Of a DNA stretch of 64,000 bases, positions 11,765 to 62,386 are shown piece after piece; position 1 is the stretch's first letter, and each line of letters begins with the position of its first letter. The position numbers were made by a program, and so were the translations under genes. The notes beneath the pieces are model-generated. The model did no database searches. It was not told the origin of the DNA and saw only the letters and a list, made by a program, of their open reading frames with translations. Source of the stretch: Halococcus qingdaonensis (GTDB lineage Archaea; Halobacteriota; Halobacteria; Halobacteriales; Halococcaceae); the NCBI RefSeq assembly GCF_024508235.1, contig NZ_CP101943.1, forward strand, positions 2,205,112-2,269,111, given 5' to 3'.

Positions 11765-13162
11765 CTACTCGGAGAGCTGCGAGAGCCACTCCTCGGCACG
11801 GCTCTCGGGGATCTCGGCGGCGTCGGCCACCGTCCCGGCGTCGGCGGCCGCCAGATCGGCGGTCGTCTCGATCCCCGCCTCGCGCAGTCGGTCGGCGTAG
11901 GTCGCCCCGATGCCCGAGACGCTCTCGATGTCGTCGGCGCTCTCGGAGCCGCCGGTCGTTTCGTCGGTGTCGTCGTGGGTACTGGTCGGCTCCTGCGTGT
12001 CGACCGCCTCGTCGGCCGCGTCGCTCGCGTCCTGAATCTCGATTTCTTCGGCGTCGTCGAGCTGCGACCGCTCCTCGTACCACTCGCAGACCGCGGGCCA
12101 GACGTTCTCGTGGGAGCTCCCCGAGACCGAGAGGCCGATGTGGCCCGTCGAATATTCGATGACCTCGGTGTCCTCGCTCCCGATGACCTCGTTGAACGGG
12201 ATGCTCGTCTCCGAGGGGATCAAGTGGTCGTACTCGCCCGTGATCTGGAGCACGGGCATGTCGATGTTCTCGATGTCTACGTGCTGATCACCCAGGGAGA
12301 GCTCGTTGTTGTAGAGCTTGTTCTCCTGGTAGATGTCCGTGACGAACTGGGCGAACGTGTCGCCGGCGACGTCGATCCCCTCCGAGAGCCAGCGCTCCAT
12401 GCGCCCGAAGTTCTCGATGAAGTCGTCGTTTTCGAGGTTGTCGTAGAGGCGGACGTACTTCGAGACGTAGTTGGAGACGGGATCCATCAGCGCGAAACCC
12501 ACGTCGAGCATCTCCGCGGGCGCGTTGCCGTAGGCGTCTTTGAGTTCGTCGGGATCGAAGTACTGGTCGTCGCCCCAGAGTTCGAGCACACCGCCCGTGT
12601 CGTCGAAGCAGAGCCCCGCAGCCATCAGCCCGAGATTTCGGACTTTCTCGGGGTTGAGCGCGGCGTACATCGCCGACATCGTTCCACCCATGCAGTAGCC
12701 CAGAACGTTGATCGCGTCCTGGCCCGACTGCTCGCGCACCTCGTCGACACAGTTGTCGATGTACCGGGTCACGTAGTCCTCAAGCGTGAGATGTTGGTCG
12801 AGCCGCGAGGGCTCGTTCCAGTCGATCATGTAGACGTCGAAGCCCGCCTCCAGCAGCCGCCGGATCACCGACCGGTCGGGCTGGAGATCGAGGATGAACG
12901 GCTTGTTGATCAGCGCGTAGATGACCAGGATCGGTACGTCGTGCTGTTCGTCCGTCCGCGGCTCGTAGTGCAGCAGTTCGAGCTTGTTCTCCGTATAGAC
13001 GACCTCGCTGTCGGTCTGGCCGACCTCGACGGAGGCCATCTGAGCGAGCTGTTCGGGGGCGATCTCGGTCTTCTCGATCGCGTCGGCGGCGGCTTCGAAG
13101 CTCTGGCGCTGGGCGTCGAGGCTCAGCGAGAACGGATCGAAGGCCGAGGGGCGCTCACTCAT
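11765..13162 (-). CDS. phaC: Class III polyhydroxyalkanoate synthase subunit PhaC
   Basis: A 465-residue PHA synthase catalytic subunit that polymerises (R)-3-hydroxyacyl-CoA. The lipase-box variant GYCMGG places the nucleophile at C157. D312 (GEYDHLIP) and H341 (STGHIG) complete the triad. After residue about 365 there is an acidic Thr/Asp-rich linker. The last ~55 residues ([18 protein letters not shown] and onward) look like a helix-hairpin-helix domain, an extension seen in haloarchaeal PhaC and absent from bacterial class III enzymes. The start abuts the stop of phaE with no gap. It is last in a phaR-phaP-phaE-phaC series. Confidence 0.95.
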
Positions 13163-13714
13163 CTACTCCTCCAGGAGCCGGTCGAGTTTCTGCGAGACCT
13201 CGTGCTGGCGGCGTTCGAGTTCGATCAGCCGCTCGGCCACCTCGTCGACGTCGTCGCGGGTGGCGAAGCCAAGGCTCTCGAGGGTGTCCTGACTCATCTC
13301 GTCGACTTCCTGCTGGAGCTCCAGCATGTCGCCGACCAGTTCACCCGTGCCGGCGGCGAAGGCCGTCGTGCCCATCACCTCCGAGAACGCCTCGTTGGCG
13401 CTCTGGAGCCAGATGTCGCGGAACTCGCTCACCGCGACGTCCTCGCCCTCGGCGGCGTCGGCGATGCGCGAGTTCATCCGCTCGGCGGCCTCCAGCCAGA
13501 CCTCGTAGGCACGGCCGTAGCCCGCCATCCCATCCTCGACGGTGTCGGGATCGGGTGTGGAATCCTCGAACGCGCCCATCCACGACTCCATGAACGCGGC
13601 CTGGGCCTCCATGTTCTGCTCGAACGACTCGGCGACCGCGTCGTTCATGTCGTTCATCATCGTCGTCCAGCGCTCCTGAACCTCTTCGGGATCGGTGTCG
13701 CTCATACTGCTCAT
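13163..13714 (-). CDS. phaE: Class III PHA synthase subunit PhaE
   Basis: A 183-residue acidic, helical protein lying directly before phaC. Its make-up (FEQNMEAQAAFMESWMGAF, AYEVWLEAAERMNSR, and a C-terminal coiled coil DEVAERLIELERRQHEVSQKLDRLLEE) matches haloarchaeal PhaE, the non-catalytic partner needed for synthase activity. Haloarchaeal PhaE is shorter than the bacterial class III partner. The first Met (13714) or the Met three codons on (13705) may be used. Confidence 0.92.
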   Translation of the reverse strand: MSSMSDTDPEEVQERWTTMMNDMNDAVAESFEQNMEAQAAFMESWMGAFEDSTPDPDTVEDGMAGYGRAYEVWLEAAERMNSRIADAAEGEDVAVSEFRDIWLQSANEAFSEVMGTTAFAAGTGELVGDMLELQQEVDEMSQDTLESLGFATRDDVDEVAERLIELERRQHEVSQKLDRLLEE

Positions 13715-13745
13715 TGGTGTGGTTGTCTGAAAAATCTATGTCCGC

Positions 13746-14414
13746 TCAGGCCGAGACCTGCGTCTCGAACTGCTCGGCCTGCGCTTCGAGCTGTTCCTGG
13801 AACTGCTCGACCTGTGACTGGAGTTGCTCCTGAAACTCCGAGGCCTGCTCCAGCTGGCGGTCGGACTGCGCCTCGAACTGCTCCTGGATGTCGGCCATGC
13901 GCTCGACCTGCTCGTCGAGCTGGCTGCCGAAGCGCTCGGCGAACTCCTCGTTGCGCGTCGCGGCCTGCTCGACCAGCTCGACTGTCCCCTCCTGGAGCTG
14001 TTCGTGTGCCGCGAACAGTTCGTCGACTCCCTCGTCAATCGCCGCGATCGACTCCTCGGTGAGTTCGTCGTGGCCGTCGAGGGCCTCCTCAACGGACGCT
14101 TCGAGCTGGTCGAAGCTCTCGGCGTGGAGCTCCTTCAGCCGGTCGAACCCCTCGTCGGCGTTCTCGCGGAACGCACGGACGTTCGTGCCGGCGGGCGTGG
14201 CGGTCTCCATCGCCTCGAAGTAGCTCTCGGCGGTGGTTTCGGCGGCTTCGACGGCCTGGCGCTGGAGCGTCTCCTGGCTCTCGATGCTCGAAAGCAGCAT
14301 CTCGCTGGCGTTTCGCTGGAGATCGAACCCTTGCTCGACGGCGTGCTGGCTCTGCTCTAGAACTGTGCGCTGCATCGCGAACGTCGCTTCGATCGGTGTG
14401 GTGTACTGGTTCAT
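13746..14414 (-). CDS. phaP: PHA granule phasin PhaP
   Basis: A 222-residue, almost entirely helical protein that is rich in Gln, Glu and Ala and lacks Cys. It has a long C-terminal coiled coil of QFQEQLEAQAEQF-type repeats from about residue 150. This composition and its place between phaR and phaE identify it as the haloarchaeal phasin that coats PHA granules. Its ATG overlaps the phaR stop (ATGA), showing translational coupling. Confidence 0.9.
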   Translation of the reverse strand: MNQYTTPIEATFAMQRTVLEQSQHAVEQGFDLQRNASEMLLSSIESQETLQRQAVEAAETTAESYFEAMETATPAGTNVRAFRENADEGFDRLKELHAESFDQLEASVEEALDGHDELTEESIAAIDEGVDELFAAHEQLQEGTVELVEQAATRNEEFAERFGSQLDEQVERMADIQEQFEAQSDRQLEQASEFQEQLQSQVEQFQEQLEAQAEQFETQVSA

Positions 14415-24489: not shown

Positions 24490-25716
24490 ATGAGTGGCGA
24501 GCTGTACGAGCCAGAGACGGTCTGGGAGTTCGAGATGGGCGACCGGGTGAAGTTCGGCGTCGGAGCCAGCAGCGAACTCCCATCGGCGATCCACGAGCAC
24601 GGCGCGTCGTCGGCGTTGTTCGTCACCGACCAGGGGGTTGCTGACGCGGGCATCGTCGACCACCTCCGCGGCGTGCTCGACGACCACGACATCGAGACGG
24701 CGGTCCATGCGGCCGTCGAACCCGAGCCGTCGGTGGCGGTCTACGACGAGGCGATACGGGCCGCCGAAACGTTCGATGCGGAGCTCGTCGTCGGCGTCGG
24801 CGGCGGGAGTTCGATGGATGTCGCCAAGACTGCGAGCGCTCTACTCGGCGACGACGGATCGGTGCTCGACTACGCCGCCCCGCCGATCGGCGAGGGGCGC
24901 TCGGTGCCCGCCACGGGTCGTCCGTGTCTCTGCATTCCGACGACGTCCGGGACCGGCTCCGAGACTTCGCCCGTCGCCGTGGTCTCGGTCGCAGCGGAGA
25001 ACCGAAAGATCGGGCTCTCCGACCGCCGGCTGCGCCCGGCAATGGCGCTCGTCGATCCGACGCTCGTCACGTCGCTACCGCCGGCCCCGACCGCCTTTTC
25101 GGGCATGGACGCGCTCGGCCATGCCATCGAATCGTACTCGGCGGTACGGTACGACGCGAAGCCACGACCTTCGACCCCCGAGGAGCGCCCCGACTACAAC
25201 GGGCGGTCACTCCTCACCGACCAGCTGGCGCGGAAGGCGATCGAGCTCGTGGGCGATAACCTCCGGCGGGCGGTCGACAACGGGAACGACCTCGACGCGC
25301 GCCGGAACATGGCGCTCGCGAGCCTGCTTGCGGGGATGGCGTTCACGAACGCCGGAACGACCGCCGCCCACGCGCTCGCGATGGCCACCGGCGCGGTCGT
25401 CGACATCCCACACGGCGTCGCGGTGGCGATATTCCTGCCGGAGGTGATGCGGTACAACGCCCAGAGCGCGCCCGAGCGGTTCGACGAGATCGTCGCTCTC
25501 CTCGGAGCGGACGACACCACGGCGACGGCGAGCGAGGCCGTCGAGGAGCTGCGCCACGACGTGGGTGTCGCCGACGGTCTCGGCGAATTCGGCGTGACCG
25601 AGGACCGGGTCGGCGAGCTGGCCGACAGGACGATCGGCATGGACCGGCTGCTCTCGCGGAACGCCCGGCGCATGACCCGTGACGATGCCGAGCGGATCCT
25701 CCGGCGGGCGCTCTGA
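24490..25716 (+). CDS. Iron-containing alcohol dehydrogenase (candidate sulfoacetaldehyde reductase)
   Basis: A 408-residue group III (iron-type) ADH. GGGSSMDVAK (from about residue 104) binds NAD(P). PTTSGTGSE and GMDALGHAIES (D207, H211) with AAHALAMATG and VDIPHGVA supply the metal site. The general reaction is NAD(P)-dependent reduction of an aldehyde or oxidation of an alcohol. It stands 234 bp upstream of xsc on the same strand and has its own leaderless promoter. Fe-type ADHs (SarD/TauF type) reduce sulfoacetaldehyde to isethionate in sulfonate-degrading bacteria, so that role is proposed from context; other aldehydes remain possible. Confidence 0.85.
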   Translation: MSGELYEPETVWEFEMGDRVKFGVGASSELPSAIHEHGASSALFVTDQGVADAGIVDHLRGVLDDHDIETAVHAAVEPEPSVAVYDEAIRAAETFDAELVVGVGGGSSMDVAKTASALLGDDGSVLDYAAPPIGEGRSVPATGRPCLCIPTTSGTGSETSPVAVVSVAAENRKIGLSDRRLRPAMALVDPTLVTSLPPAPTAFSGMDALGHAIESYSAVRYDAKPRPSTPEERPDYNGRSLLTDQLARKAIELVGDNLRRAVDNGNDLDARRNMALASLLAGMAFTNAGTTAAHALAMATGAVVDIPHGVAVAIFLPEVMRYNAQSAPERFDEIVALLGADDTTATASEAVEELRHDVGVADGLGEFGVTEDRVGELADRTIGMDRLLSRNARRMTRDDAERILRRAL

Positions 25717-25866
25717 GCGCTTCGGCCCGACGGAGAGGACGATGAACAGTACTCTCACCGGTCGTCGGTCAGCAGTCGTCACGACCGTCGAAGAACGTTG
25801 GCAGTGCCGACAGACTTCAGAACAACACTCGCCATTATCGACGTTATTTTATCCAATCTATCTCAT

Positions 25867-25876
25867 TTTGTTGTAG
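25867..25876 (+). promoter_or_regulatory. Candidate regulator site TTTGTTGTAG upstream of xsc
   Basis: This 10-mer, about 35 bp upstream of the xsc TATA box, occurs again at 30798-30807 in the promoter of the APC permease, where a near-copy precedes it in tandem. The shared placement upstream of TATA boxes suggests a common regulator binding site; it is unproven. Confidence 0.35.
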
Positions 25877-25907
25877 TTTCTTCCCAGAGTTTGAGCTGAG
25901 ACGGAAG

Positions 25908-25914
25908 TTATAAG
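25908..25914 (+). promoter_or_regulatory. TATA box of xsc
   Basis: TTATAAG is a good haloarchaeal TATA box. It is only about 16 bp from the ATG at 25927 but 40 bp from that at 25951, so the transcript should begin near 25937 and translation at 25951. Confidence 0.5.
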
Positions 25915-25950
25915 TCATTCCGTGGTATGGATGCAAGTGGGTCGAACGGA

Positions 25951-27738
25951 ATGTCACGACAGCAAGCACCACCACCGACCGAGGACGCACCGCTCCACGA
26001 GGGTGAGACGATGTCGCCGAGCGAGGCGCTGCTCGAACAGTTCGTCGCCGAGGACGCCGACGTGATGTTCGGGATCGTCGGCTCGGCGTTCATGGACTTC
26101 CTCGACATCATGCCGCAGGCGGGCATCCGCTACCTGCCCGTCCGCCACGAACAGAACGCCGCCCACATGGCCGACGGCTACGCCGAAGCGCTCTGTGGCC
26201 GCGAACCGGGCATCTGCGTCGCCCAGAACGGTCCCGGCGTCACCAACATGGTCACCGGGATCAAGGCCGCCCAGCTCAACCACTCGCCGGTGATCATGCT
26301 CTCGCCGGCCGCCACCACCGGTTCGATAGGAACTGATGGGTTCCAGGAGGCCGACACCATGTCGATCTTCGACGAGTGTGTCGACTGGCAGGGCCGTCTC
26401 GAAGACAACAGCCGCGTCGCCGAGTACGTGCGGACGGCCTACCGCGAGTCACTGACCGAGATGGGGCCCACTCAGATCGACTTCGCCCGCGATCAGCTCT
26501 ACGGCGAGATCGAGACCGACGTGCTCCAGCCCAACCAGTACCGTCAGGAAAGCATCGGTGCGGCCGACGACTCGAAGGTGAGCGAGGCCGCGACCATGCT
26601 CTCGGAGGCCGACAACCCGGCGATCATCGCCGGCCTCGGGACGATCTACTCCGACGCGATCGACGAGGTCGCCGACCTCGCCGAGGAGTTGAACGCGCCG
26701 GTGGCGAACTCCTACCTCCACAACGACAGCTTCCCGATCAGCCATCCCCTCGCTGTGGGCGCGCTCGGCTACGGCGGCTCGAAGGCCGCGATGGAGACGC
26801 TCTCGGAGGCCGACTGCGTGCTCGCCGTCGGCAGCCGCCTCAGCGGCTTCGGTCTCCTCCCCCAGTACGGGATGGACTGGTTCCCCGAGGACGCCGACGT
26901 CATCCAGATCGACGCCGACGCCTCCCAGATCGGCCGCACCACGCGCGTCGAGTTGGGTCTAGTCGGCGACGCCGCCGAAACCGTCCGCGGTCTCGCCGGC
27001 GATCTCGACGCCTCTGCCGGTGCGGACGACTCGCGCGTCGACGAGATCAAACAGGCCTACGCCGACTGGAAGGACGAGCTCGAAGAGATGTCCCAGTCGG
27101 ATCAGATGCCGATCCACCCGCGGCGCGCGCTCTGGGACGTCGCACAGGCGCTGCCCGAGAACACGATGGTCTCGACCGACATCGGCAACACCTGCTCGAT
27201 GGCCAACGCCTACCTGGAGTTCGACAATCCGGGTAACTTCCTCGCCGCCGGGACGTACGGCAACTGCGGGTTCGCCTACCCCGCGGCCATCGGCGCGAAG
27301 GTCGCCCGACCCGACGACCCCGCAGTGGCGCTCGTCGGCGACGGCGCGTGGGGCATGCAGTCGATGAACGAGATCATGACCGCCGTCCGCGAGGACATTC
27401 CGGCCGTCGCGGTCGTGTTCAACAACATGGAGTGGGGTGCCGAAAAGCAGAACCAGTACTGGTTCTACAACGACCGCTTCGTCGGCACCGACCTGCCCGA
27501 GAACCCCGATTTCGCCGAGATCGCCCGCGACATGGGCGCACACGGTACGCGGGTCAAAGATCCGGACAACGTCCAGTCGGCGATGACCGACGCGCTCCAG
27601 TCGGGCGAGCCCGCCGTCGTCGAGATCATGACCGACGGCACCGAGCTACTCGAACCGTTCCGCCGCGACGCGCTCGACGATCCCGAGCGCGTCCTGGAGA
27701 AGTACCGCCAGCCCGGCGACGCCAACTACGAGGGCTGA
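25951..27738 (+). CDS. xsc: Sulfoacetaldehyde acetyltransferase (Xsc)
   Basis: A 595-residue thiamine-diphosphate enzyme (an upstream Met at 25927 would add eight residues). N-terminal [19 protein letters not shown], the TPP-activating Glu in [12 protein letters not shown] (E67), QNGPGVTN and [12 protein letters not shown] follow the Xsc pattern rather than acetolactate synthase. The cofactor motif runs from GDGAWGM (D464) to NN (491-492), followed by [19 protein letters not shown] and a C-terminal EPFRRDA, all Xsc hallmarks. Xsc cleaves sulfoacetaldehyde with phosphate to sulfite and acetyl phosphate. The pta gene 41 bp downstream handles the acetyl phosphate. This is the diagnostic gene of the sulfonate locus. 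Confidence 0.93.
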
Positions 27739-27779
27739 GCCGGCGGCGGTCACCGACCGTCACCGCATTCGAACCATCG

Positions 27780-28844
27780 ATGAGCCTTCTTTCACGACTT
27801 CGCGAACAAGCACGGACGGCGAGCCCACGCATCGTTCTCCCCGAAGCTCACGACAGCCGCGTGCGCGAAGCGGCCATCAGGGCCGCACACGACGGTATCG
27901 CCGAGCCAGTGCTGTTGGGTACCGACGAGGGATCACGAGCACTGTGTGCCGAACACGATCTGCCGCGGGGCGCACTCACCGTTCTCGATCGGTCCGACGA
28001 GCGGATCGAGGAGAATGCCGCCGCGTACGCCGCGCTGCGCGACGTACCCGTGTCGGCCGCAAAGCGCGTGCTCGACGACGAGTTGGTGCTCGGGGCGTGG
28101 CTCGCGCGCACCGGCGAGGCCGAGGGGCTAGTCGCAGGTGCGACCCATCCGACCGCCGAGGTGGTCGCGACGGCCAACGGGATCGTCGGCCTGGATCCGC
28201 TGGTCGACACCGCATCGAGCTACTTCCTGATGGCGTTCGACGACCCGGCCATCGGCGAGAACGGTGCGCTGCTCTACGCCGACTGCGGGGTGAACATCGA
28301 CCCGGACGACGAGCAGCTGGCGGACATCGCGCTCGCAACCGCCGCGACCGCCGAGGAGCTCCTCGGCTGGGAGCCACGGGTCGCCATGCTCTCGTTCTCG
28401 ACGAAGGGGAGCGCGAGCCACGAGACCGTCGACGAGATCCGACGGGCGACCGAACTGGCCCGCGAGCGGATGGGCGGACTCTGCATCGACGGCGAGTTGC
28501 AGAGCGACGCGGCGCTCGTCCCGAGCATCGCCGAACGCAAGAACGGGGATGCAGGTATCGTTAACGGCGACGCGAACGTGCTCGTCTTCCCGGATCTGAA
28601 CGCGGGCAACATCGCCTACAAACTCACCGAGCGGCTCGCGGGCGCGACGGCGCTCGGCCCGGTGTTGCAGGGCTACGCGCGACCGCTGAGCGATCTCTCG
28701 CGCGGCGCGAGCGCCGACGACGTCTACGACATCGTTACGATCACGGCCGCCCGCGCCGCGGTGAGCGAGGGGTTCGCCGACGGGACGATCCTCGAACGCG
28801 GGCAGTTGGCTCGACGCGAACAGGAGCCGCCACACCCTGAGTGA
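27780..28844 (+). CDS. pta: Phosphate acetyltransferase (Pta)
   Basis: A 354-residue PTA_PTB-domain enzyme without the extra N-terminal domains of E. coli Pta. Conserved blocks include [63 protein letters not shown] and [30 protein letters not shown]. It converts acetyl phosphate and CoA to acetyl-CoA and phosphate. It begins 41 bp after xsc on the same strand, so the pair probably forms one transcript. Haloarchaea generally make acetate by ADP-forming acetyl-CoA synthetase, so Pta here is best explained by Xsc. Confidence 0.93.
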
Positions 28845-29333
28845 TTGGCGGATCGCCGTATCGATCATCGGGCGACCGTTTTTGCTAACGATCTCCATTT
28901 CACGGGAGTCCGTTCGACCGCACCGACAGCGGGATCGCTGTTCACGGTGATGGCGAGCGTTCGTGGCGTCCGAACGGAGATCTCGGCTGCTGGCAGTATC
29001 GATCCGGACAGATCGCGTCACGCTGCGCTCACTGGCTCTCGGACGTCATCGGTCCCGAAACGTCACCGATGATGGCGTTCGTCGAGTGTGTAGGGATGCG
29101 ACAGCTCTGTATTATGATCGCCGACGTCGCTTCGGTTCTGCTCTCGATCACTCCTAGCTATCGGGCCAGCGCGTCGTGACGACGGCGAGCGAAACAGGAG
29201 TGCCGTGTTTCTGACGAATGGGTGCTGTTTTGGAGCCCTCCCCAAGAAAATCGTCATCAATCGAAAGTGGGTGCTGACGGCCGCCGGTCGGAAGCGAGGG
29301 GCTGTCGGCAGCGCGGTCGAGAAGGGGTGTGTA
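28845..29333. other. Intergenic region, no gene seen
   Basis: These 489 bp lie between pta and the stop of the convergent permease gene. Short open frames exist but have no start signal, no haloarchaeal amino-acid bias and no recognisable product. The local composition is less GC-rich than the flanking genes. It may hold both terminators or a decayed gene. Confidence 0.5.
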
Positions 29334-30746
29334 CTACTGCTGTTCCGACACCGGCTGTCGGGTCTCCTCCATCGTGGTTTCGGTCGTCGTCCGCCGTGAG
29401 AGCGCGAACAGCACCGCGCCGAGGACGATCCAGGCGACGACGATCGCCCACTCGCGCGGCCAGAGCAGCGCCGAGGGCGCGCCGGGCATGTAGAGCCCGA
29501 TGAAAAACAGCGTCACGATCATCCCGGCGATGCCGAAGGTGTAGCCACCGGGGAGCTTGAACGGCCGCTCCATCTCGGGTTCGTTGTAGCGCAGCGCGAC
29601 GAACGACAGCGCGACGGTGAACCAGGCGAGCACGATCCCGAGCGAGCCGGCGTTGATGATCGAGCTGACGAAGTTGCCGCCGAACCACGGCGCGGCCATC
29701 GAGAGCGCGCCGATGAGGACGATCGCGCGCGAGGGCGTGTTGTACTCGGGATGGACCGTGGCGAGCGATTCGGGCAGGAGCCCCGAGTCGGCCATCGCGA
29801 AGACGATGCGGCTCGCGCCGATGACGAACGCGCTCCAGCTGGTGAGCAGCGCGCCGATGCCGACGATCGTCATCAGCTTGCCCGCCACGGTGCTGCCGAA
29901 GATCGCGCTCATCGCCGTCGCGGCCGGCACGAGGCTGTCGCCGAGCGCGCCCGCGGCGACGGCCCCGCCGGCCGCCCAGATGCTGACGATGTAGAACAGG
30001 CCGACCGTCGCGACGACCGCGAGCACCACCAGCGCGAGCGAGCGCGAGGACATATCGGCCTCCTCGGCGGCCTGTGGCACGACGTCGAAGCCGACGAACA
30101 GCATCGGCACCTGGATGGCGACGGTCGTGATTCCGAGCACCGGCGCGCCACCGAAGGCCGCGTTCGAGATCGATGGTCCGACGGTGAGCGAGCCCGTCAC
30201 GAGCGCGATGCCCGAGATGGCGATGATCGTCGCGAGAACGAGCTGTACCTGCGCGGTGATCTCGACGCCGCGGTAGTTCAGATACGTGATCGCGAGAATG
30301 CCGAGGAATCCGACTGCGACCCACGAGCCGTAGACGGTCTGGCCCGCGAACGTCCAGAGTGCCAGCACGTCGAAGCCGGGAATCAGATAGGAGAACCCGA
30401 TGCCGAGAGCGATCGACTGGAAGCCGACGACACCCATGTAGCCGAGCAACAGCGACCAGCTACAGACGAAGGAGACCGCCGGCCCGAACGCGCGGTGGGT
30501 GTAGACGTGCTCGCCGCCCGCGAACGGCATCGCCGAGACGAGTTCGCCGTAGATGAGCGCGACGAGGAGCACGAGCACCCCACCGATGGCGAAGGCAGCC
30601 ATCGCCCCGTACGGTCCCGCTTCGTCGATCCAATAGCCCATCTGGATGATCCAGCCCCAGCCGACGATCGCGCCGAAGCCGATGGCGAACAGCTGCCATC
30701 GTGAGAGGACCCGTTCCAGCGATCCATCCGTGGTATCACCAGTCAT
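29334..30746 (-). CDS. APC-superfamily permease (candidate taurine/amine importer)
   Basis: A 470-residue permease with about 12 membrane helices. The first is unwound at GFGAIVGWGWIIQMGYW, the typical APC substrate-binding start, followed by PFAGGEHVYTHRAFGP and an EEADM segment in the loop after helix 6. The family moves amino acids, ethanolamine and related amines with H+ or Na+. Its place between pta and the alanine-dehydrogenase-like gene suggests import of taurine or a related amine; this is inference. The start at 30746 fits a TATA-like CATTAAAG on the minus strand about 28 bp upstream. Confidence 0.85.
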   Translation of the reverse strand: MTGDTTDGSLERVLSRWQLFAIGFGAIVGWGWIIQMGYWIDEAGPYGAMAAFAIGGVLVLLVALIYGELVSAMPFAGGEHVYTHRAFGPAVSFVCSWSLLLGYMGVVGFQSIALGIGFSYLIPGFDVLALWTFAGQTVYGSWVAVGFLGILAITYLNYRGVEITAQVQLVLATIIAISGIALVTGSLTVGPSISNAAFGGAPVLGITTVAIQVPMLFVGFDVVPQAAEEADMSSRSLALVVLAVVATVGLFYIVSIWAAGGAVAAGALGDSLVPAATAMSAIFGSTVAGKLMTIVGIGALLTSWSAFVIGASRIVFAMADSGLLPESLATVHPEYNTPSRAIVLIGALSMAAPWFGGNFVSSIINAGSLGIVLAWFTVALSFVALRYNEPEMERPFKLPGGYTFGIAGMIVTLFFIGLYMPGAPSALLWPREWAIVVAWIVLGAVLFALSRRTTTETTMEETRQPVSEQQ

Positions 30747-31090
30747 GCTACCGCAATACATTCGCGAATACTTTAATGTTATGTATATTTGTTGGAGTTT
30801 GTTGTAGCTATAGCCAGTATTCTTGCTGTATTCGTCAGAATTTAACCGCCGATCGGGACGCCGTCGTCGGGTTTTGTTGCCGAACCCTCATGAACGACCG
30901 GCCTGCAAGCACGTCGGCCGACGAGCAGCGTCGTCCGGACCGTTCCGGATCGGTGCGGTGGACGATCGTTCCAATTATCGATTCGAAATCGACATCATTG
31001 AGCGATACACTCCCCCTATGTAATATTTTATTCAGTATATCGGCAGTGTTACGGTAGAAAAGTTTAAGATACTCGCGCATAGTTGTCGAT
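30747..31090. promoter_or_regulatory. Divergent regulatory region, permease / alanine-dehydrogenase-like gene
   Basis: This 344-bp AT-richer space carries no gene. It holds the permease TATA (minus strand, 30771-30778), tandem 10-mers TTTGTTGGAG (30788-30797) and TTTGTTGTAG (30798-30807), and the TATA box TTTAAG (31063-31068), 25 bp before the plus-strand ATG at 31091. The second 10-mer is repeated exactly upstream of xsc. Confidence 0.5.
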
Positions 31091-32104
31091 ATGCGCATGA
31101 GCACACTCGCATCCGAGGAGGACGTAACCGAGCGGGGAACGCTGATGATCGACCGCGACGAGCTCGACGACTGCGTCGAGATGGCGGGCGTCATCGACGC
31201 GATCGAGGACGCTTTCGTCGCCTACGAGGACGGCGACGCGGTGATGCCGCCGAAGACCTACGTCGACCTCCCCGAGGAGAACGGCGACTTCCGGGCGATG
31301 CCGGCGTACGTCGACGGTGCGGCCGGCCTCAAGTGGGTCAACGTCCATCCGGACAACCCCACGAAACACGACCTGCCGACGGTGATGGGCGTCGTCATCT
31401 ACTCCGACCCGGAGACGGCCTACCCGCTGGCGATCATGGACGGAACGAAGCTCACTCGCTACCGCACCGGCGCGGTCGGCGGCGTCGCCAGCCGCCATCT
31501 CGCCCCACCCGACACGCGCACGATGGGTCTGGTCGGCGCGGGCGAACAAGCACGCGCACAGTTGGAAGCGATCTCGAGCATCGTCGATCTCGATCGGGTC
31601 GTCGTCACCGATCTGGACGAAACGGCGGTCACCGACCTCTGTAAGAAAGAGGCCGATCGCGCCGACGAGGTCGTCAGCGGCAGTCCGGAGGAGGTCGCGA
31701 GCTGTGACGTAATCTCGACCACCACGCCCTCGACAGAACCGATCCTGAAGCGCGAGTGGCTCGACGAGGGGACACACATCAACGCGATGGGAGCCGACGC
31801 GGAGGGCAAGCAGGAGCTCGACCCGCGGATCATCGAGGACGCAGCCGTCGTCGTCGACGACTGGGAACAGTGCTCTCACAGCGGCGAGATCAACGTCGCC
31901 GTCGCCGAGGGCCGTCTCGCCAGAAAGGACGTCCACGCCGATCTGAGCGAGGTCGTCAGCGGAACGCGCGACGCGCCGACCGACGAACTCACTGTCTTCG
32001 ATTCGACGGGACTAGCGATCCAGGACATCGCGGCCGCGGGCCTGATCTACGAGAGCGCCGAGGAGCAGGGTGCCGGCTACACGTTCGATCTCGTGGGCAC
32101 GTAA
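31091..32104 (+). CDS. Ornithine cyclodeaminase/mu-crystallin family, probable alanine dehydrogenase
   Basis: A 337-residue NAD-dependent enzyme. Substrate-binding features include LKWVNVHPDNP (K81) and DGTKLTRYRTGAVGG. The Rossmann motif GLVGAGEQARAQLEAI begins near residue 147, and GADAEGKQELD follows. Archaeal members of this family (Archaeoglobus type) are alanine dehydrogenases. Beside a class III aminotransferase and Xsc, alanine dehydrogenase would oxidise the alanine formed, returning pyruvate and releasing ammonia. Ornithine cyclodeaminase remains an alternative. It is leaderless, with TTTAAG 25 bp upstream. Confidence 0.85.
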   Translation: MRMSTLASEEDVTERGTLMIDRDELDDCVEMAGVIDAIEDAFVAYEDGDAVMPPKTYVDLPEENGDFRAMPAYVDGAAGLKWVNVHPDNPTKHDLPTVMGVVIYSDPETAYPLAIMDGTKLTRYRTGAVGGVASRHLAPPDTRTMGLVGAGEQARAQLEAISSIVDLDRVVVTDLDETAVTDLCKKEADRADEVVSGSPEEVASCDVISTTTPSTEPILKREWLDEGTHINAMGADAEGKQELDPRIIEDAAVVVDDWEQCSHSGEINVAVAEGRLARKDVHADLSEVVSGTRDAPTDELTVFDSTGLAIQDIAAAGLIYESAEEQGAGYTFDLVGT

Positions 32105-32217
32105 CGACCCCACCAGCCTCTCGTCGCCCGGTTCCCGACCGTTTCTTCAGTCGTCGTTCTACACGTAATAGGGAGGATTAAGTGCGCGTGTCGAGTATCT
32201 TCCAACCGCATTCAACT

Positions 32218-32712
32218 ATGGACGAACGTGACATCAAGATCCTCTCGGCGATTGCGAACCTCGGCACCGGCAGTCCCGACCGGCTCCACGAGGAGACGGG
32301 CATCCCGAAGTCGACGATCTACTACCGACTGAACAACCTCCGCGAGGAGGGTGTCATCAAGAACGACCTCTACGATATCGACTACGAGAAGGTCGGGCTC
32401 GGCGTCACCATCATCGCCGAGGTCATCGCCGAGTACGACGAGGGCTACCACGAGCGCGTCGGCGAGAAGCTCTCGAACATCGAGGGCGCGGATCAGGTCT
32501 ACTTCACGATGGGCGAGACCGACTTCGTCGTCATCGCCCGCCTCGGTAACCAGGGGATGGTCGAGGATCTCATCAGCCAGTTCGAGGGGATCGACGAGGT
32601 GATCCGCACTCGATCGATGTTCACTATCTCCACCATCAAAAACGAGCCGCGACTGCTCAAGAACTTCGAGTTCGATACGCTCGAATCGATCGCCGACGCC
32701 GAGGACGAGTAG
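32218..32712 (+). CDS. Lrp/AsnC-family transcriptional regulator
   Basis: A 164-residue regulator. Residues 1-50 form a winged helix (MDERDIKILSAIANLG, SPDRLHEETGIPKSTIYYRLNNL). Residues about 62-140 form the RAM ligand-binding domain (TIIAEVIAEYDEGYHERV, YFTMGETDFVVIARL). Lrp-type proteins sense amino acids. Set between the alanine-dehydrogenase-like gene and the aminotransferase gene, whose stop lies 2 bp away in convergent orientation, it is the obvious candidate regulator of the sulfonate locus. A TATA-like GATTAAG lies near 32177. Confidence 0.88.
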   Translation: MDERDIKILSAIANLGTGSPDRLHEETGIPKSTIYYRLNNLREEGVIKNDLYDIDYEKVGLGVTIIAEVIAEYDEGYHERVGEKLSNIEGADQVYFTMGETDFVVIARLGNQGMVEDLISQFEGIDEVIRTRSMFTISTIKNEPRLLKNFEFDTLESIADAEDE

Positions 32713-32714
32713 CG

Positions 32715-34040
32715 CTACTCGAACACCTCCTCGATCGAGTCCTCGAGCGCCGCGACGCCCGTCTCGATGTCGTCCTCGTCGACACAGAACGGTGGCGAGA
32801 GCATGATCTGGATCAGCGGCCGGCCACCGCCAACGAGCACACCCTTCTCGCGCGTGCGGGTGAGGACATCTGCGACGGGGTTGTAACCGTCCTCGACGCG
32901 CGGATCGAACACTGGTTCACCGGTTTCGGGATCGGCGAACTCGACCGCCCAGTGGAAGCCGCGCCCGCGGACGTCACAGACGATGTCGTGATCTTCGAGA
33001 TCCCTGACCCGCTCTTCGAGCGCTGGCGAGAGTTCCTGGACGTTGTCGATCAGGTGATCGTCGTACTCCTCCAGGGCAGCGCTGCCGGCGGCACACGCGA
33101 CCGGGTTGCCGGCGAACGTCTGGCCGATGTCCATCGCGTCCTCGCGGAGCGCCGTGCCGAGTTCCGAGCGCATCAGCACGCCAGCGAGCGGCGCGTAGGC
33201 GCTCGTCACGCCCTTGGCGAACGTGATCATGTCCGGTTCCAGATCCTCGGTCTGGCTGCCGAACCACTCGCCGCAGCGGCCGAAGCCGGTGATGACCTCG
33301 TCGGCGATCAGCAGGATGTCGTACTCGTCACAGAGCTCGCGCACGCCCTCGAAGTAGCCCGGTGGCGCGGTGAACGCCCCGCTCGACCCACCGACGATCT
33401 CGGTGACCAGCGCCGCGATCGAGTCCGGTCCCTGGTTGCGGATGACGTATTCGAGGTGGTCGAGCGATCGCTCGGTGAGCTCCTCGGGCGAGTCGGCGTC
33501 GAAGGCGGCGTCGGCACCCCCAAAGGGTGGGAGGAACTTCACGTTGCCCGTGGTCGCGGCGTGCGATTCGACCGGCAGCCGGATCGCGGGATCGCCCGTG
33601 ATGCCCGCGGTCGCGTACGTACCGCCGTGGTAGGAGCGCCAGCGGGTCAACACCGTCGAGGAATCCTGGAACTCGCGGGCGATCTGGATCGCCGCCTCGT
33701 TCGCCTCGCTGCCCGAAATCGAGAAGAACACGTCCGTGAGCGGCTGTGGCGCGACCTCGGTCAGCGTGTCGGCGAGCTGACTGCGCGCGTCGTTGTCCTT
33801 CGCCGAGGAGACGTACTGCACTCGATCGAGCTGCTCGGCCATCGCGTCGGTGATGGCGTCGTTGCTGTGGCCCGCGTTCACGCAGTACAGCTGGGAGGTG
33901 AAGTCCAGGTACTCCTCGTCATCGTCGGTGCGCACGTACGCACCGTCACCCTCGGTGATCGTCATCGGTTCCTCGTCCATGTGCCCGAAGTGAGCGAGCA
34001 CGCCGCGTTCTCCCGTCCTGATCTGTTCGCGTTGCGCCAT
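32715..34040 (-). CDS. Class III aminotransferase, candidate taurine:pyruvate aminotransferase
   Basis: A 440-residue fold-type I PLP enzyme. SGSEANEAAIQIAR binds phosphate, D247 (LLIADEVITGFGR) pairs with the pyridine nitrogen, and K276 (MITFAKGVTSAYAPLAG) is the Schiff-base lysine. The segment around K276 matches omega-amino-acid:pyruvate enzymes including taurine:pyruvate aminotransferase (Tpa). Taurine transamination yields sulfoacetaldehyde, the Xsc substrate. beta-Alanine or GABA transamination cannot be excluded by sequence. The start at 34040 is fixed by TATAAA on the minus strand about 28 bp upstream. Confidence 0.85.
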   Translation of the reverse strand: MAQREQIRTGERGVLAHFGHMDEEPMTITEGDGAYVRTDDDEEYLDFTSQLYCVNAGHSNDAITDAMAEQLDRVQYVSSAKDNDARSQLADTLTEVAPQPLTDVFFSISGSEANEAAIQIAREFQDSSTVLTRWRSYHGGTYATAGITGDPAIRLPVESHAATTGNVKFLPPFGGADAAFDADSPEELTERSLDHLEYVIRNQGPDSIAALVTEIVGGSSGAFTAPPGYFEGVRELCDEYDILLIADEVITGFGRCGEWFGSQTEDLEPDMITFAKGVTSAYAPLAGVLMRSELGTALREDAMDIGQTFAGNPVACAAGSAALEEYDDHLIDNVQELSPALEERVRDLEDHDIVCDVRGRGFHWAVEFADPETGEPVFDPRVEDGYNPVADVLTRTREKGVLVGGGRPLIQIMLSPPFCVDEDDIETGVAALEDSIEEVFE

Positions 34041-43913: not shown

Positions 43914-44795
43914 CTACTGTGCCGATGAACTCGACGCGCGATTGAGATAGCGTACCGCGATCGCGCCGAGAGCGATATCGAGCGCGATCAGGACGGCGAA
44001 CGAGGGGATCAGGGTGTTCCAGACGCCGCCGAACGCCGTCACGTCGATCACGGTCTGGACGTCGCGGCCGAGCATCAGCGCGCGGGCGGCGTCGACGCCG
44101 TAGGTGATGGGATTGAACGTGGCGACGGTCTGCACCCAGCTCGGGAGGATATCGACCGGGAGGAAGGCGCTGGAGACGAACAGCAGCGGGAACTGGAGCA
44201 GGTTCGCGCCGATGATGGTCGACTCCTGGTCGCGGGTGACGAGCGCGACGATGTTCGAGAAGGCGGTGAACCAGATCGCGAAGACGATGGCGACGAGGAC
44301 GATCCCGAGCGCGCCGACGATCCCGGTCTCGATGTAGGTGCCGACCGCCCCGCCCGTGTCGAACCAGAGCAGGACGTAGCCGAGCCCGAGGATGATGAAC
44401 GTCTGGACGACGATCCGGACGACCTCGGAGAGCGACTTGCCGAGGAACATCGCGGCGCGGTTGATCGGCGAGACGAGCACCTTCTCGAACATGCCGTTCT
44501 CCATGTCGTCGACGAGACCGATCCCGGAACCGGCGGCCGCGACGAGCGCCGACTGGACGATGATCGCGGGCGTGAGGTAGGTCACGTAGGAGATGTCCGG
44601 CCCGAGCGCCTGGCTGAGCGCGCCGCCGACGGCCCCGCCGAAGATCTCGGTGAACAGTACCAGAAAGATGACCGGCTGGACCAGCGAGCCGACGACGACG
44701 AACGGGTTGCGGGTCGTCTTGATCAACCAGCGCTTCAGGTTGATCCAGACGTCGGCGAGGAACCCGTTGCTGTTGCCCGCCTCGACGGTGCTCAT
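43914..44795 (-). CDS. ABC-2 type transporter permease
   Basis: A 293-residue permease with six membrane helices and the ABC-2 signature (MFEKVLVSPINRAAMFLGKSLSEVVR; LFVSSAFLPVDILPSWVQTVATFNPITYGVDAARAL). It pairs with the ATPase upstream; its ATG overlaps the ATPase stop (ATGA). The DrrB-like type exports drugs or lipids. Confidence 0.9.
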   Translation of the reverse strand: MSTVEAGNSNGFLADVWINLKRWLIKTTRNPFVVVGSLVQPVIFLVLFTEIFGGAVGGALSQALGPDISYVTYLTPAIIVQSALVAAAGSGIGLVDDMENGMFEKVLVSPINRAAMFLGKSLSEVVRIVVQTFIILGLGYVLLWFDTGGAVGTYIETGIVGALGIVLVAIVFAIWFTAFSNIVALVTRDQESTIIGANLLQFPLLFVSSAFLPVDILPSWVQTVATFNPITYGVDAARALMLGRDVQTVIDVTAFGGVWNTLIPSFAVLIALDIALGAIAVRYLNRASSSSAQ

Positions 44796-45799
44796 CGGGC
44801 AGCCTCCGGCGCGGCCGATTCCCGAGTTCCCTCAGCCGGTTCGTCGTTCTCCTCGGCCGGCTCGCCGGTGATGGCGAGGAACACGTCGTCGAGAGTGGGC
44901 GAGCGTACGTCGAAGCCCGTGACGGTGAAGTCGGCATCGCGCAGCGCGACCAGCAGATCGGTGCCGCGGCTCCGGGCGTGCTCGGAGGCAACGCTGATGC
45001 CGTCGTCGGTGGTCTCGACCGTTCCGTCGGCGAACAGCCCCGACTCGCGGGCGACCTCCTCGGCACGTGCCCGCCGCTCCTCGCTCGCGTCGTCGATCGT
45101 GATGTCGAGCACGTCGCCGCCGACCTCGGATTTCAGCGTATCGGGCGCGTCCGTGGCGACGATCTGCCCGTCCTGGATCACCGAGAGCCGGTCGCAGAGT
45201 TCGTCGGCCTCTTCCAGGTACTGCGTCGTGAGGAAAACAGTCGTCCCCTGCTCGTTGATCTCGCGGAAATACTCCCAGAGGCGGATCCTGGCTTTGGGGT
45301 CGAGCCCCGTGGTGGGTTCGTCGAGGAAGACCAGCGGGGGTTCGTGGACGAGCGCGGTCGCCACGTCGAGGCGCTTTTTCATCCCGCCGGAGAACTCCGT
45401 CGCCTCCTTGTCGGCGACGTCGGCGAGATCGACGAGATCGAGCAGTTCGTCGATTCGATCCGCGCGTTCGCCCCGGGGCACGCCGTAGGCCTCGCAGGCG
45501 AACTTGATGTTCTCGCGGGCGGTGAGTTCCTCGTCGACGCTGGTTTCCTGGGCCATGTAGCCGATCGTCTCGCGGACGGACTGTGCGTCCTCGATGACAT
45601 CGAACCCGTTGACCGTCACCGTGCCGGCGGTCGGATAGAGCAGTGTCGTGAAGGTCTTGATCGCGGTCGTCTTGCCCGCGCCGTTCGGCCCGAGGAAGCC
45701 GAAGAACTCGCCCTCAGGGATCGCGAGGTCGATGCCACGCACCGCCTCGGTTCCGTCCGAATAGGTGAGCTCGACACCCGTGGCTTCGATGGCATTCAT
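44792..45799 (-). CDS. ABC transporter ATP-binding protein (DrrA-like)
   Basis: A 335-residue ATPase. Walker A GPNGAGKT is at 37-44, signature EFSGGMKKRLDVA near residue 137, and Walker B PLVFLDEPTTGLD. The C-terminal ~110 residues form the DrrA-type extension. With the following permease it makes an exporter for a drug-like or lipid substrate. The ATG is 25 bp from a TATATA box shared with the divergent TetR gene, so it is leaderless and probably repressed by that TetR protein. Confidence 0.93.
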   Translation of the reverse strand: MNAIEATGVELTYSDGTEAVRGIDLAIPEGEFFGFLGPNGAGKTTAIKTFTTLLYPTAGTVTVNGFDVIEDAQSVRETIGYMAQETSVDEELTARENIKFACEAYGVPRGERADRIDELLDLVDLADVADKEATEFSGGMKKRLDVATALVHEPPLVFLDEPTTGLDPKARIRLWEYFREINEQGTTVFLTTQYLEEADELCDRLSVIQDGQIVATDAPDTLKSEVGGDVLDITIDDASEERRARAEEVARESGLFADGTVETTDDGISVASEHARSRGTDLLVALRDADFTVTGFDVRSPTLDDVFLAITGEPAEENDEPAEGTRESAAPEAAR

Positions 45800-45812
45800 T
45801 GTCTCTCAATGA
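45796..45812. promoter_or_regulatory. Second inverted repeat at the ABC start
   Basis: TCATTG-TCTCT-CAATGA has 6-bp arms and covers the first codon and likely transcription start of the ABC ATPase gene. It is a candidate second operator for the adjacent TetR protein. Confidence 0.35.
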
Positions 45813-45823
45813 GGATGCGAGCG

Positions 45824-45829
45824 TATATA
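45824..45829. promoter_or_regulatory. Shared TATATA box of divergent leaderless genes
   Basis: The self-complementary TATATA lies 25 bp from the ABC ATPase start (45799, minus) and 26 bp from the TetR start (45855, plus). No other TATA-like box is present in the 55-bp gap, so one TBP site probably serves both directions. Confidence 0.6.
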
Positions 45830-45832
45830 GCT

Positions 45833-45854
45833 GTTGAATGAGTATTCACTCAAC
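45833..45854. promoter_or_regulatory. Probable TetR operator
   Basis: An inverted repeat with arms GTTGAATGA and TCACTCAAC (8 of 9 paired) about GTAT ends at the base before the TetR ATG. TetR-family operators in haloarchaea often have TGAAT...ATTCA-type arms. Binding here would block RNA polymerase at the TetR start and crowd the shared TATA box. Confidence 0.6.
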
Positions 45855-46484
45855 ATGGAGTCGGAACCCTTCGGCGAGGATCCGAACGGGACCCGCGAGG
45901 CGATCATGCGCGCGACCTACCGCGCGCTGTGCGAGCACGGCTACGCGGCCCTGACGATCGCCGACATCGGCGCGGAGTTCGACAAGAGCGTCTCGCTCGT
46001 CTATCACCACTACGAGGGCAAGGACGACCTGCTGGTGGATTTTCTGGGCTACATGCTCGATCGGTTCAGAACCGAGGTCACCATCGAGAACAGCGAGGAT
46101 CCCCATGAACAGCTCCGCGCGGCGCTCGCGGGCGTCCGTACCGGCCCGCTCGCCGCCGACCGCCGCGAGTTCACGAGCGCCCTCACCGAACTGCGAGCAC
46201 AGGCCGCCCACGACCCGGCCTTTCGCGAGCAGATCGAAAAGACGGACGCGTTCTTCCACGAGCGCATCGCCGACATCGTGCGCACCGGGATCGAACAGGG
46301 CGTCTTCCGCGACGTCGATCCCGACCGTGTGGCGACGATGATGGTGACGGCAGTCAACGGCGCGATGCTCACCCATGTGACGACCGACGCGCCGGTGACG
46401 CCCGCGATCGACGAACTCGACGCGTATATCGACTCACGACTGGTCGTCAAAGATGGTGGTGGAGACGTCGAAAGCGATTCTTAG
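45855..46484 (+). CDS. TetR/AcrR-family transcriptional regulator
   Basis: A 209-residue repressor. Residues 14-60 hold the helix-turn-helix (REAIMRATYRALCEHGYAALTIADI, then FDKSVSLVYHHYEGKDDLL). The C-terminal ligand domain resembles the BetI/TetR_C group. It is divergent from the ABC exporter and is almost certainly its ligand-responsive repressor and an autorepressor. The ATG at 45855 is preferred over an upstream in-frame TTG because the latter would lie within the operator. Confidence 0.88.
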   Translation: MESEPFGEDPNGTREAIMRATYRALCEHGYAALTIADIGAEFDKSVSLVYHHYEGKDDLLVDFLGYMLDRFRTEVTIENSEDPHEQLRAALAGVRTGPLAADRREFTSALTELRAQAAHDPAFREQIEKTDAFFHERIADIVRTGIEQGVFRDVDPDRVATMMVTAVNGAMLTHVTTDAPVTPAIDELDAYIDSRLVVKDGGGDVESDS

Positions 46485-46488
46485 CCGG

Positions 46489-46502
46489 TGTACTGGCGGT
46501 AG
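46489..46502 (+). repeat. Imperfect 14-bp repeat, left flank of the low-GC insert
   Basis: GTGTACTGGCGGTA matches GTGTATTGGTGGTA at 47690-47703 in 12 of 14 bases. The two copies bracket the AT-rich segment. This could be an integration scar or chance. Confidence 0.25.
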
Positions 46503-46623
46503 CTAAAATTTTTGATAGCTATTTACGGTTGCTATCTAAGACATCAGACGCCCATCATCTCCTACATATTCACTTACACCGTGGTAGGCTATGGCTTATT
46601 ACATCCCGTGAAGACCATCATGT

Positions 46624-47541
46624 ATGGCCTCGGAGAAATCTCCAAGCGGTGAACTTCGTGAACTTATTTACATAGATAACGAAAGTGTGAACGGACATCT
46701 ATCCTCAATGGGTGTTGGATTAGAAACAGGAATTGACGAGTCGTCTGGTAGCGTCGAAGGCGGACGGGCACGTTTCTTCGGGAATATCAACGTTCCTGGG
46801 CTGCCTCTCGGATTAGGGGGTGAAGGGGAGAAGTACAATGAGGAAACGGAAGACATTCAAAAACAAATCGACATCACAGTCCCGTATCGACTGCAAACCT
46901 TGCGTGAGGTGATTGAGACATCTGAGTCGACCATCAAGAATCCAGACGAAGAAGGAGTTGGACCTGGTGATGTGGTTGAAGTTACAGGAACTGTAGAGCC
47001 AATGTCTCTATTCCGATTTGAACTCACTGAAGATGTGATAATACGCATAAACGAAGCCACAAATATAATGACAGATGCATTAGCTGAAATTCGCGGTGTA
47101 TCTCCCAATGAATTGGCGGAGGAGGATCAAGATGCTGAAGAAGATGATGGAAATGTAGTCGGTAATGAAGCATTCCTAGAAGCTTCAAAGAAACTCAACA
47201 ACAAGCGTGTACCGATAAGGATAGACACGGAGGGCGGAAACTCATTTGGCGCACTGCTAAACCGAAAGAGCATGACTGTTCCAGAAACACATGCTTTCTC
47301 GCGGCCACGAAAATATACAATATTTGCCCGTGTTGAACGGCGAATTGGTAATAATGAAAGTTGGGAGCCTACAGATACACTTCGATTGGGCAAACACTTT
47401 ACAAATATGACAGAGGAGTTGGAAGATTTTTCAGATGATCTAAAGTCTGCCGCAGCAGGTCATGGTGTCAAGATGGATGATAAACACGTGAATATGGATG
47501 GTCCTGGGAAGATTGTTCATCCTATCGCTGTGTATTGGTGA
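46624..47541 (+). CDS. Low-GC hypothetical protein, possibly DUF6414-like
   Basis: A 305-residue protein whose codons are far more AT-rich than its neighbours, with frequent A- or T-ending codons. It opens RELIYIDNESVNGHLSSMG, a pattern I loosely associate with DUF6414-type proteins of mobile or defence-linked regions. A beta-rich N-terminus, an acidic central stretch (about 180-190) and VPYRLQTLREVIE follow. No catalytic motif or membrane helix is seen. Base composition and a repeat-flanked setting suggest recent acquisition. A TATA-like CTTATTAC lies about 30 bp upstream. Confidence 0.7.
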   Translation: MASEKSPSGELRELIYIDNESVNGHLSSMGVGLETGIDESSGSVEGGRARFFGNINVPGLPLGLGGEGEKYNEETEDIQKQIDITVPYRLQTLREVIETSESTIKNPDEEGVGPGDVVEVTGTVEPMSLFRFELTEDVIIRINEATNIMTDALAEIRGVSPNELAEEDQDAEEDDGNVVGNEAFLEASKKLNNKRVPIRIDTEGGNSFGALLNRKSMTVPETHAFSRPRKYTIFARVERRIGNNESWEPTDTLRLGKHFTNMTEELEDFSDDLKSAAAGHGVKMDDKHVNMDGPGKIVHPIAVYW

Positions 47542-47682
47542 GCATAGCAGAACAACGCTTGCTACGCCAGTTTAGCACCAAGGAGATGACTGCTTGTGTG
47601 AATTTGAACTATAGCTTCGCCTGCACTTTCATATCAACTACCTTTTTTGTTCTGTCCTCCTGTGTAAGAAAGGTATGACCGA

Positions 47683-62288: not shown

Positions 62289-62327
62289 CGGCCATGGGAC
62301 GGACGCTCGCCGGCCATATCGTCGTGT

Positions 62328-62337
62328 TTTTATTTGC
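62328..62337. promoter_or_regulatory. Shared TATA-rich box, GH26 / surface protein genes
   Basis: GTTTTTATTT (AAATAAAAAC on the minus strand) is the only strong TATA-like run between the divergent starts at 62288 and 62387, and may serve one or both genes. Both would then have short leaders. Confidence 0.4.
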
Positions 62338-62386
62338 GGCACGCATGAAGCTGCTGATTACACTCGGCCATCGCGTCGAGGAACAA

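Follow-up and report, generated by a model that had tools for sequence, protein, structure and literature searches.

A probable taurine-dissimilation island on the chromosome of Halococcus qingdaonensis

The dissimilation of taurine and other sulfonates by way of sulfoacetaldehyde acetyltransferase (Xsc) is regarded as a bacterial trait. In the archaeal DNA analysed here (the window: 64,000 nt of the Halococcus qingdaonensis chromosome, genome G000, 2.70 Mb in one contig), positions 24490-34040 hold seven genes that probably form a chromosomal taurine-dissimilation island, a reading to which we assign a probability of about 0.72. The case for one pathway is that the cluster encodes Xsc, phosphate acetyltransferase (Pta), an alanine dehydrogenase and an aminotransferase that plausibly acts on taurine, and that their linkage recurs in three genera. 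An initial annotation, made from the sequence alone, had described the seven genes as lying together, which was borne out; the superfamily-level names it had given match the family scans of all seven proteins. Third-position G+C (GC3) is 0.82-0.91 for the genes listed in Table 1, and the soluble proteins are acidic, which points to haloarchaeal codon bias and to real genes.

In the proposed pathway, taurine would enter the cell, probably via the APC permease, and the class III aminotransferase would convert taurine and pyruvate to sulfoacetaldehyde and alanine. The OCD-type alanine dehydrogenase, as its family suggests, would return alanine to pyruvate with release of ammonium and NADH. Xsc, for which family membership is a strong argument, would use thiamine diphosphate to turn sulfoacetaldehyde and phosphate into sulfite and acetyl phosphate, and Pta, again as expected from its family, would supply acetyl-CoA for the tricarboxylic acid cycle and biosynthesis. 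Oxidation or export of sulfite would fall to proteins whose genes lie outside the cluster. The iron-containing alcohol dehydrogenase (Fe-ADH) might provide an optional side entry, most likely from isethionate to sulfoacetaldehyde.

Xsc, Pta and the linked aminotransferase

Membership of the window protein in the Xsc family is strongly supported by sequence comparison. It scores above the cut-offs of both curated models, the equivalog TIGR03457 (701.4 versus 676.4 bits) and NF005713 (735.5 versus 620 bits). In the tree, eight haloarchaeal Xsc group together (support 100/100) and, with seven bacterial Xsc, make up a larger clade (100/100), outside which the acetolactate-synthase-like paralogues of the window genome fall. 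Forty-one alignment columns never vary among bacterial Xsc and are not seen in the other thiamine diphosphate (TPP) enzymes; the window protein keeps 30 of them, and 29 are shared by all eight haloarchaeal proteins. The best named relatives are those of H. morrhuae (99%) and H. thailandensis (98%). Xsc is rare, being present in 7 of 392 Halobacteriales genomes (E up to 1e-150) and, in a phylum sample of 393 genomes, only in G000 and G063, both Halobacteriales (E up to 1e-120). Pta is probably cotranscribed with Xsc, and the order of the pair is conserved in four haloarchaeal genera (Halococcus, Halomarina and those of genomes G078 and G063). Its score exceeds the cut-off of the subfamily model NF007233 (313.3 versus 310 bits) and lies below that of the equivalog TIGR00651 (287.2 versus 311.2 bits); the nearest solved structures are phosphate acetyltransferases.

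The linkage to Xsc is the best evidence that the aminotransferase acts on taurine. The protein belongs to a haloarchaeal omega-aminotransferase family found in 97 of the 392 Halobacteriales genomes and, since that family is broad among haloarchaea, its substrate has to be deduced from context. The aminotransferases near Xsc are monophyletic (SH-aLRT 99), in a tree that includes one distant characterised reference only. This clade is present in 5 of the 7 Xsc genomes versus 1 of the 385 others; the Fisher test on this co-occurrence gives p = 1.7e-9 by genome, a figure inflated through shared ancestry, and 0.004 by genus (strict count). Relatives within the clade are 67-98% identical and lie 5-23 kb from Xsc in the three genera, the distance, wherever contigs permit, being 5.0 kb in the window, 8.3 kb in the Halococcus genome G053, 9.7 kb in Halomarina and 22.6 kb in G078. 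Eleven positions set the clade apart from its relatives, including H312N in an active-site loop (GN/HP) placed by homology. The best solved relative is the taurine:2-oxoglutarate aminotransferase 6jix (218.8 bits, the next structure scoring 202.4), with which the FAKG lysine motif aligns and to which identity is low. Together, linkage and solved relative suggest taurine as the substrate. A related aminotransferase adjoins an OCD-like gene in an unrelated setting in a Halococcus genome devoid of Xsc (G034, L092:5892-8214); the aminotransferase/OCD pairing therefore extends beyond taurine.

An alanine dehydrogenase lies near the Xsc-linked aminotransferase in all three genera (Halococcus, Halomarina and that of G078). 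For the OCD protein of the window, the nearest solved structure is the alanine dehydrogenase of Archaeoglobus fulgidus (1omo/1vll, 310 bits versus 202 for the next one), so that a conversion of alanine to pyruvate and ammonium is supported at the family level. Because this gene adjoins the aminotransferase, pyruvate is the likelier amino acceptor. Comparison of Xsc neighbourhoods in Halobacteriales genomes, a check of the kind that the initial annotation had proposed, found the aminotransferase clade and alanine dehydrogenase close to Xsc in three genera. Since, in addition, Xsc scores above its curated cut-off in few Halobacteriales, the cluster appears to go beyond chance.

Table 1. Genes of the probable taurine-dissimilation island (window positions)
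Gene	Product	Length (aa)	Position	Strand	Family and remarks
Fe-ADH	iron-containing alcohol dehydrogenase	408	24490-25716	+	PF00465/PF25137
Xsc	sulfoacetaldehyde acetyltransferase, TPP-dependent	595	25951-27738	+	alternative in-frame ATG at 25927
Pta	phosphate acetyltransferase	354	27780-28844	+	PF01515; 41 bp after Xsc
Permease	APC-superfamily amino-acid permease, candidate taurine importer	475	29334-30761	-	PF13520
OCD	OCD-family alanine dehydrogenase	319	31145-32104	+	in-frame ATG also at 31091
Lrp	Lrp/AsnC-like transcriptional regulator	164	32218-32712	+	PF01037 with winged HTH
Aminotransferase	class III aminotransferase, proposed taurine:pyruvate aminotransferase (Tpa-like)	441	32715-34040	-	PF00202, 274 bits

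The genes are not co-directional, the permease and the aminotransferase being encoded opposite to the other five. Because of these strand changes, the cluster comprises at least four transcription units, i.e. (Fe-ADH-)Xsc-Pta, the permease, OCD-Lrp and the aminotransferase, and is not one operon. The Lrp-like gene also adjoins the aminotransferase in G053 and G078, and its product probably regulates the locus. The permease, whose matches include an ethanolamine-permease model below its cut-off, is a candidate taurine importer. Halococcus species share well-conserved promoters for Xsc and for permease/OCD. An exact 10-mer, TTTGTTGTAG, occurs before Xsc (25867-25876) and before the permease (30798-30807), and six matches with at most one mismatch are found in the window versus 0.29 expected. 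As a shared regulatory motif it was rejected: it is absent before OCD and the aminotransferase and inconsistent in other genera, which makes it a weak lead only. The motif comparison in the window and other genera established no common operator for the locus.

Fe-ADH is an optional module that takes no step in the conversion of taurine to acetyl-CoA. The protein reaches no NCBIfam equivalog; as a SarD-type sulfoacetaldehyde reductase (NF050025) it was rejected, with 231.2 bits against a cut-off of 700. It lies beside or near Xsc in G053 (82%), Halomarina (63%) and G105 (55%). H. morrhuae and H. thailandensis have no Fe-ADH in the interval from the MBL gene to Xsc, nor anywhere else in their genomes. 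Relatives at about 50-55% are present in many genomes without Xsc, and it is this distribution, along with the distance to the SarD cut-off, that led us to treat it as optional. It might be an isethionate (2-hydroxyethanesulfonate) dehydrogenase feeding sulfoacetaldehyde from the side. The claim that all seven genes form a single functional unit was thus not sustained, given an Fe-ADH without a role in taurine use and the multiple transcription units.

Elsewhere in the window, genes resembling by eye the subunits of polyhydroxyalkanoate synthase (PhaC/PhaE) and an associated protein were seen at 11765-14414, a possible sink for acetyl-CoA. Two adjacent genes at 60028-61296 and 61293-62342 point in opposite directions and match glycosyl hydrolase 26 weakly, and positions 44001-48000 have a G+C content of 0.59 versus about 0.63-0.67 across the remaining window.

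Xsc neighbourhoods and sulfite handling in other haloarchaea

In G053, Fe-ADH-Xsc-Pta is kept, with the aminotransferase-Lrp-OCD group at the distance given above. For both H. morrhuae and H. thailandensis, the contig with Xsc breaks off within the permease gene and the following one starts just before OCD-Lrp-aminotransferase, which is consistent with the gene order of the window. The Halomarina locus, carried by a megaplasmid, runs in the order aminotransferase (79%), alanine dehydrogenase (78%), TRAP transporter, IclR-like regulator, SauS (acylating sulfoacetaldehyde dehydrogenase), Fe-ADH, Xsc (83%), Pta, class III CoA-transferase, TctABC, FeS-NrfD protein and molybdopterin oxidoreductase. 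In G078, about 35 kb contain Lrp, aminotransferase (68%), alanine dehydrogenase (72%), TRAP transporter, a haloarchaeal malate synthase, SauS, Xsc, Pta and a molybdoenzyme; as in Halomarina, the TRAP transporter adjoins the alanine dehydrogenase. G063 has a SauS-like gene, Xsc, Pta and a CoA-transferase-like gene. In G105, Xsc lies beside Fe-ADH and an acetate kinase (L050:12227-13414, TIGR00016, 429 bits versus a cut-off of 293), with no Pta within the stretch examined; this is possibly a variant yielding ATP by substrate-level phosphorylation.

The SauS model is clearly passed in Halomarina and G078 (677 versus 600 bits). The presence of SauS in these sister loci is independent support for sulfoacetaldehyde as the central metabolite. 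SauS was not found in the window genome (E up to 1e-60), and H. morrhuae and H. thailandensis are also without it. A SauS-like aldehyde dehydrogenase, a CaiB-type CoA-transferase and Tct genes also occur together where Xsc was undetected (L095:5976-10470 in G085, L096:4227-12041 in G116 and L097:6797-12593 in G254). The SauS-like protein of G116 is above the SauS cut-off; the SauS reading frame of G085 contains one TAA. These clusters would either handle sulfoacetate by another route or act on a different substrate. Thi4-type thiazole synthase genes were seen near Xsc in four genomes (L049:10178-11197, L050:7937-8962, L053:13854-14783 and L055:3876-4826). Xsc requires thiamine diphosphate; the idea that Thi4 serves the island as an additional source of thiamine was dropped, the copy near Xsc being the sole one detected in three of the four genomes and a second copy occurring only in G078.

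As to sulfite, a fused FeS-NrfD protein with a molybdoenzyme of about 1000 aa (L075:31486-36516; L054:11797-16677; L098:7598-10735) lies near Xsc in Halomarina and G078; in G063 it is found at another place on the Xsc contig. The pair is a candidate new sulfite dehydrogenase, whose molybdoenzyme shares only 24% identity, along some 455 residues, with the one beside xsc in Azospirillum. In the four Halococcus Xsc genomes, a search with the sister-locus molybdoenzyme brought up no SoeABC sulfite dehydrogenase with the taurine genes. The window genome encodes four proteins of the PF00174 sulfite-oxidase family and also TauE proteins, which are not diagnostic because they are found in every Halobacteriales genome compared. 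At G000:C1:1081424-1087524 (L085), a cytochrome-b561-fused PF00174 protein and a Mo-co-dimer PF00174 protein flank an SLAC1-type channel gene, candidates for sulfite oxidation and efflux.

The sister loci add SauS, a CoA-transferase, transporters of the TRAP and Tct types and the candidate sulfite-oxidising molybdoenzyme, which suggests a modular island with Xsc at its centre. We lean somewhat towards a general form of this proposal, in which haloarchaea would possess a C2-sulfonate island built around Xsc-Pta (or Xsc near AckA) with interchangeable entries: aminotransferase, alanine dehydrogenase and APC or TRAP transporter for taurine; Fe-ADH for isethionate; CaiB-type CoA-transferase, SauS and Tct transporter for sulfoacetate. 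The new sulfite molybdoenzyme would belong to some lineages, and the island would be spread over several genera, in one case on a megaplasmid, making them overlooked sulfonate degraders of brines and salted fish.

Alternative readings and relation to known systems

Several observations weigh against the taurine reading. No NCBIfam taurine aminotransferase model was matched by the aminotransferase, which was thus rejected as a bacterial-type Tpa by model; its top model is PRK06062 (372.6 bits versus a cut-off of 472), and its kinship with the solved taurine enzyme is only remote. Most members of its family are about 55-65% identical and occur in varied contexts, many in genomes without Xsc. G063 and G105 have Xsc without the Xsc-linked aminotransferase and, conversely, G116 (79% complete) has the clade aminotransferase with Xsc undetected. 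The OCD protein, at 368.6 bits, is about 40 bits below the TIGR02371 cut-off of 409.15 and is accordingly best termed alanine-dehydrogenase-like. The cluster contains no sulfite-disposal gene, and none of the four Halococcus Xsc genomes searched, the window genome among them, has the molybdoenzyme of the sister loci. The statement that every catalytic step is represented thus stands for carbon and nitrogen, whereas the cluster does not provide for sulfite disposal. Taurine as the substrate is favoured by the recurrent linkage of Xsc, aminotransferase and alanine dehydrogenase and weakened by the breadth of the aminotransferase family.

There is some room, albeit little, for the view that the locus consists of separate units with no shared intermediate, Xsc-Pta serving isethionate (via Fe-ADH) or sulfoacetate and the adjoining aminotransferase, OCD, Lrp and permease genes serving another omega-amino acid, e.g. 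beta-alanine. Fe-ADH directly precedes Xsc in the window, G053 and Halomarina, SauS and the CoA-transferase accompany Xsc in sister loci, and both the broad aminotransferase family and, in G034, the aminotransferase-OCD pair exist without Xsc. However, in H. morrhuae and H. thailandensis, which have Xsc, Pta and the aminotransferase but neither Fe-ADH nor SauS, it would not be obvious where the sulfoacetaldehyde for Xsc came from if the aminotransferase did not supply it; the recurrence of the Xsc-linked aminotransferase clade in three genera also argues for a single pathway. It is quite improbable that taurine is mainly a nitrogen source, with ammonium freed and the sulfonate carbon largely lost, e.g. 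by Fe-ADH reduction to isethionate and excretion. Bacteria with such nitrogen-only use are known (PMC12625764) and the Fe-ADH superfamily includes SarD, but Xsc and Pta would then be pointless, the SarD score is far below cut-off and Fe-ADH is lacking in two of the four Halococcus Xsc genomes. Least probable is that ‘Xsc’ is a divergent, acetolactate-synthase- or phosphoketolase-like TPP enzyme acting on some other aldehyde or a 2-oxo acid, with no sulfonate involved. Among the bacterial Xsc of the plasmid collection, the closest one shows about 47% identity, 11 of the 41 Xsc-specific columns differ and the G078 and G063 homologues are slightly below the TIGR03457 cut-off; against this stand the passing of both models by the window protein, the support of the Xsc clade and the direct company of SauS and Pta around its relatives.

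Taken as a taurine pathway, the locus shares with the bacterial Tpa-Ald-Xsc-Pta system the reaction sequence, recognisable Xsc and Pta family members and recycling by alanine dehydrogenase. It differs in being archaeal, in the OCD/mu-crystallin family of its alanine dehydrogenase, in an aminotransferase drawn from the haloarchaeal omega-aminotransferase family rather than a recognised Tpa subfamily, and in having an Lrp-like regulator, an APC permease and no clustered sulfite-handling gene. The Bilophila wadsworthia pathway (Tpa, Ald, SarD, IslAB), where the Tpa and alanine dehydrogenase arrangement is documented (PMC8667426), is alike in taurine transamination with alanine dehydrogenase recycling and in placing an Fe-ADH-superfamily enzyme at the sulfoacetaldehyde/isethionate step. 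There, however, a glycyl radical enzyme cleaves isethionate, whereas here Xsc would cleave sulfoacetaldehyde, and the cluster has no IslA. Bacterial sulfoacetate degradation relies on SauS with SauT or SauCD, feeding Xsc (PMC12625764). The sister haloarchaeal loci likewise carry SauS above cut-off beside Xsc; they have a class III (CaiB-type) CoA-transferase in place of the CoA ligase, and the whole module is absent from the window genome. The taurine:2-oxoglutarate aminotransferase 6jix, of Bifidobacterium, uses an acceptor different from the pyruvate that is more likely here.

The initial annotation named no characterised haloarchaeal pathway of this kind, and none linking haloarchaea with taurine, Xsc, sulfoacetaldehyde or organosulfonates was found described in the open-access literature searched. 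Automated pipelines may already have labelled these genes accordingly. The underlying chemistry is known; what is new is the archaeal assembly, with its OCD-type alanine dehydrogenase, its haloarchaeal aminotransferase clade and its modular entries. In it, the bacterial alanine dehydrogenase, regulator and permease are replaced by unrelated or distant proteins. Taurine is a sulfur-containing compound common in marine animals, and Halococcus is a culturable genus from sea salt and salted fish, where taurine is plentiful. If the proposed pathway is true, Halococcus would be able to use taurine for carbon, energy and nitrogen, with release of sulfite.

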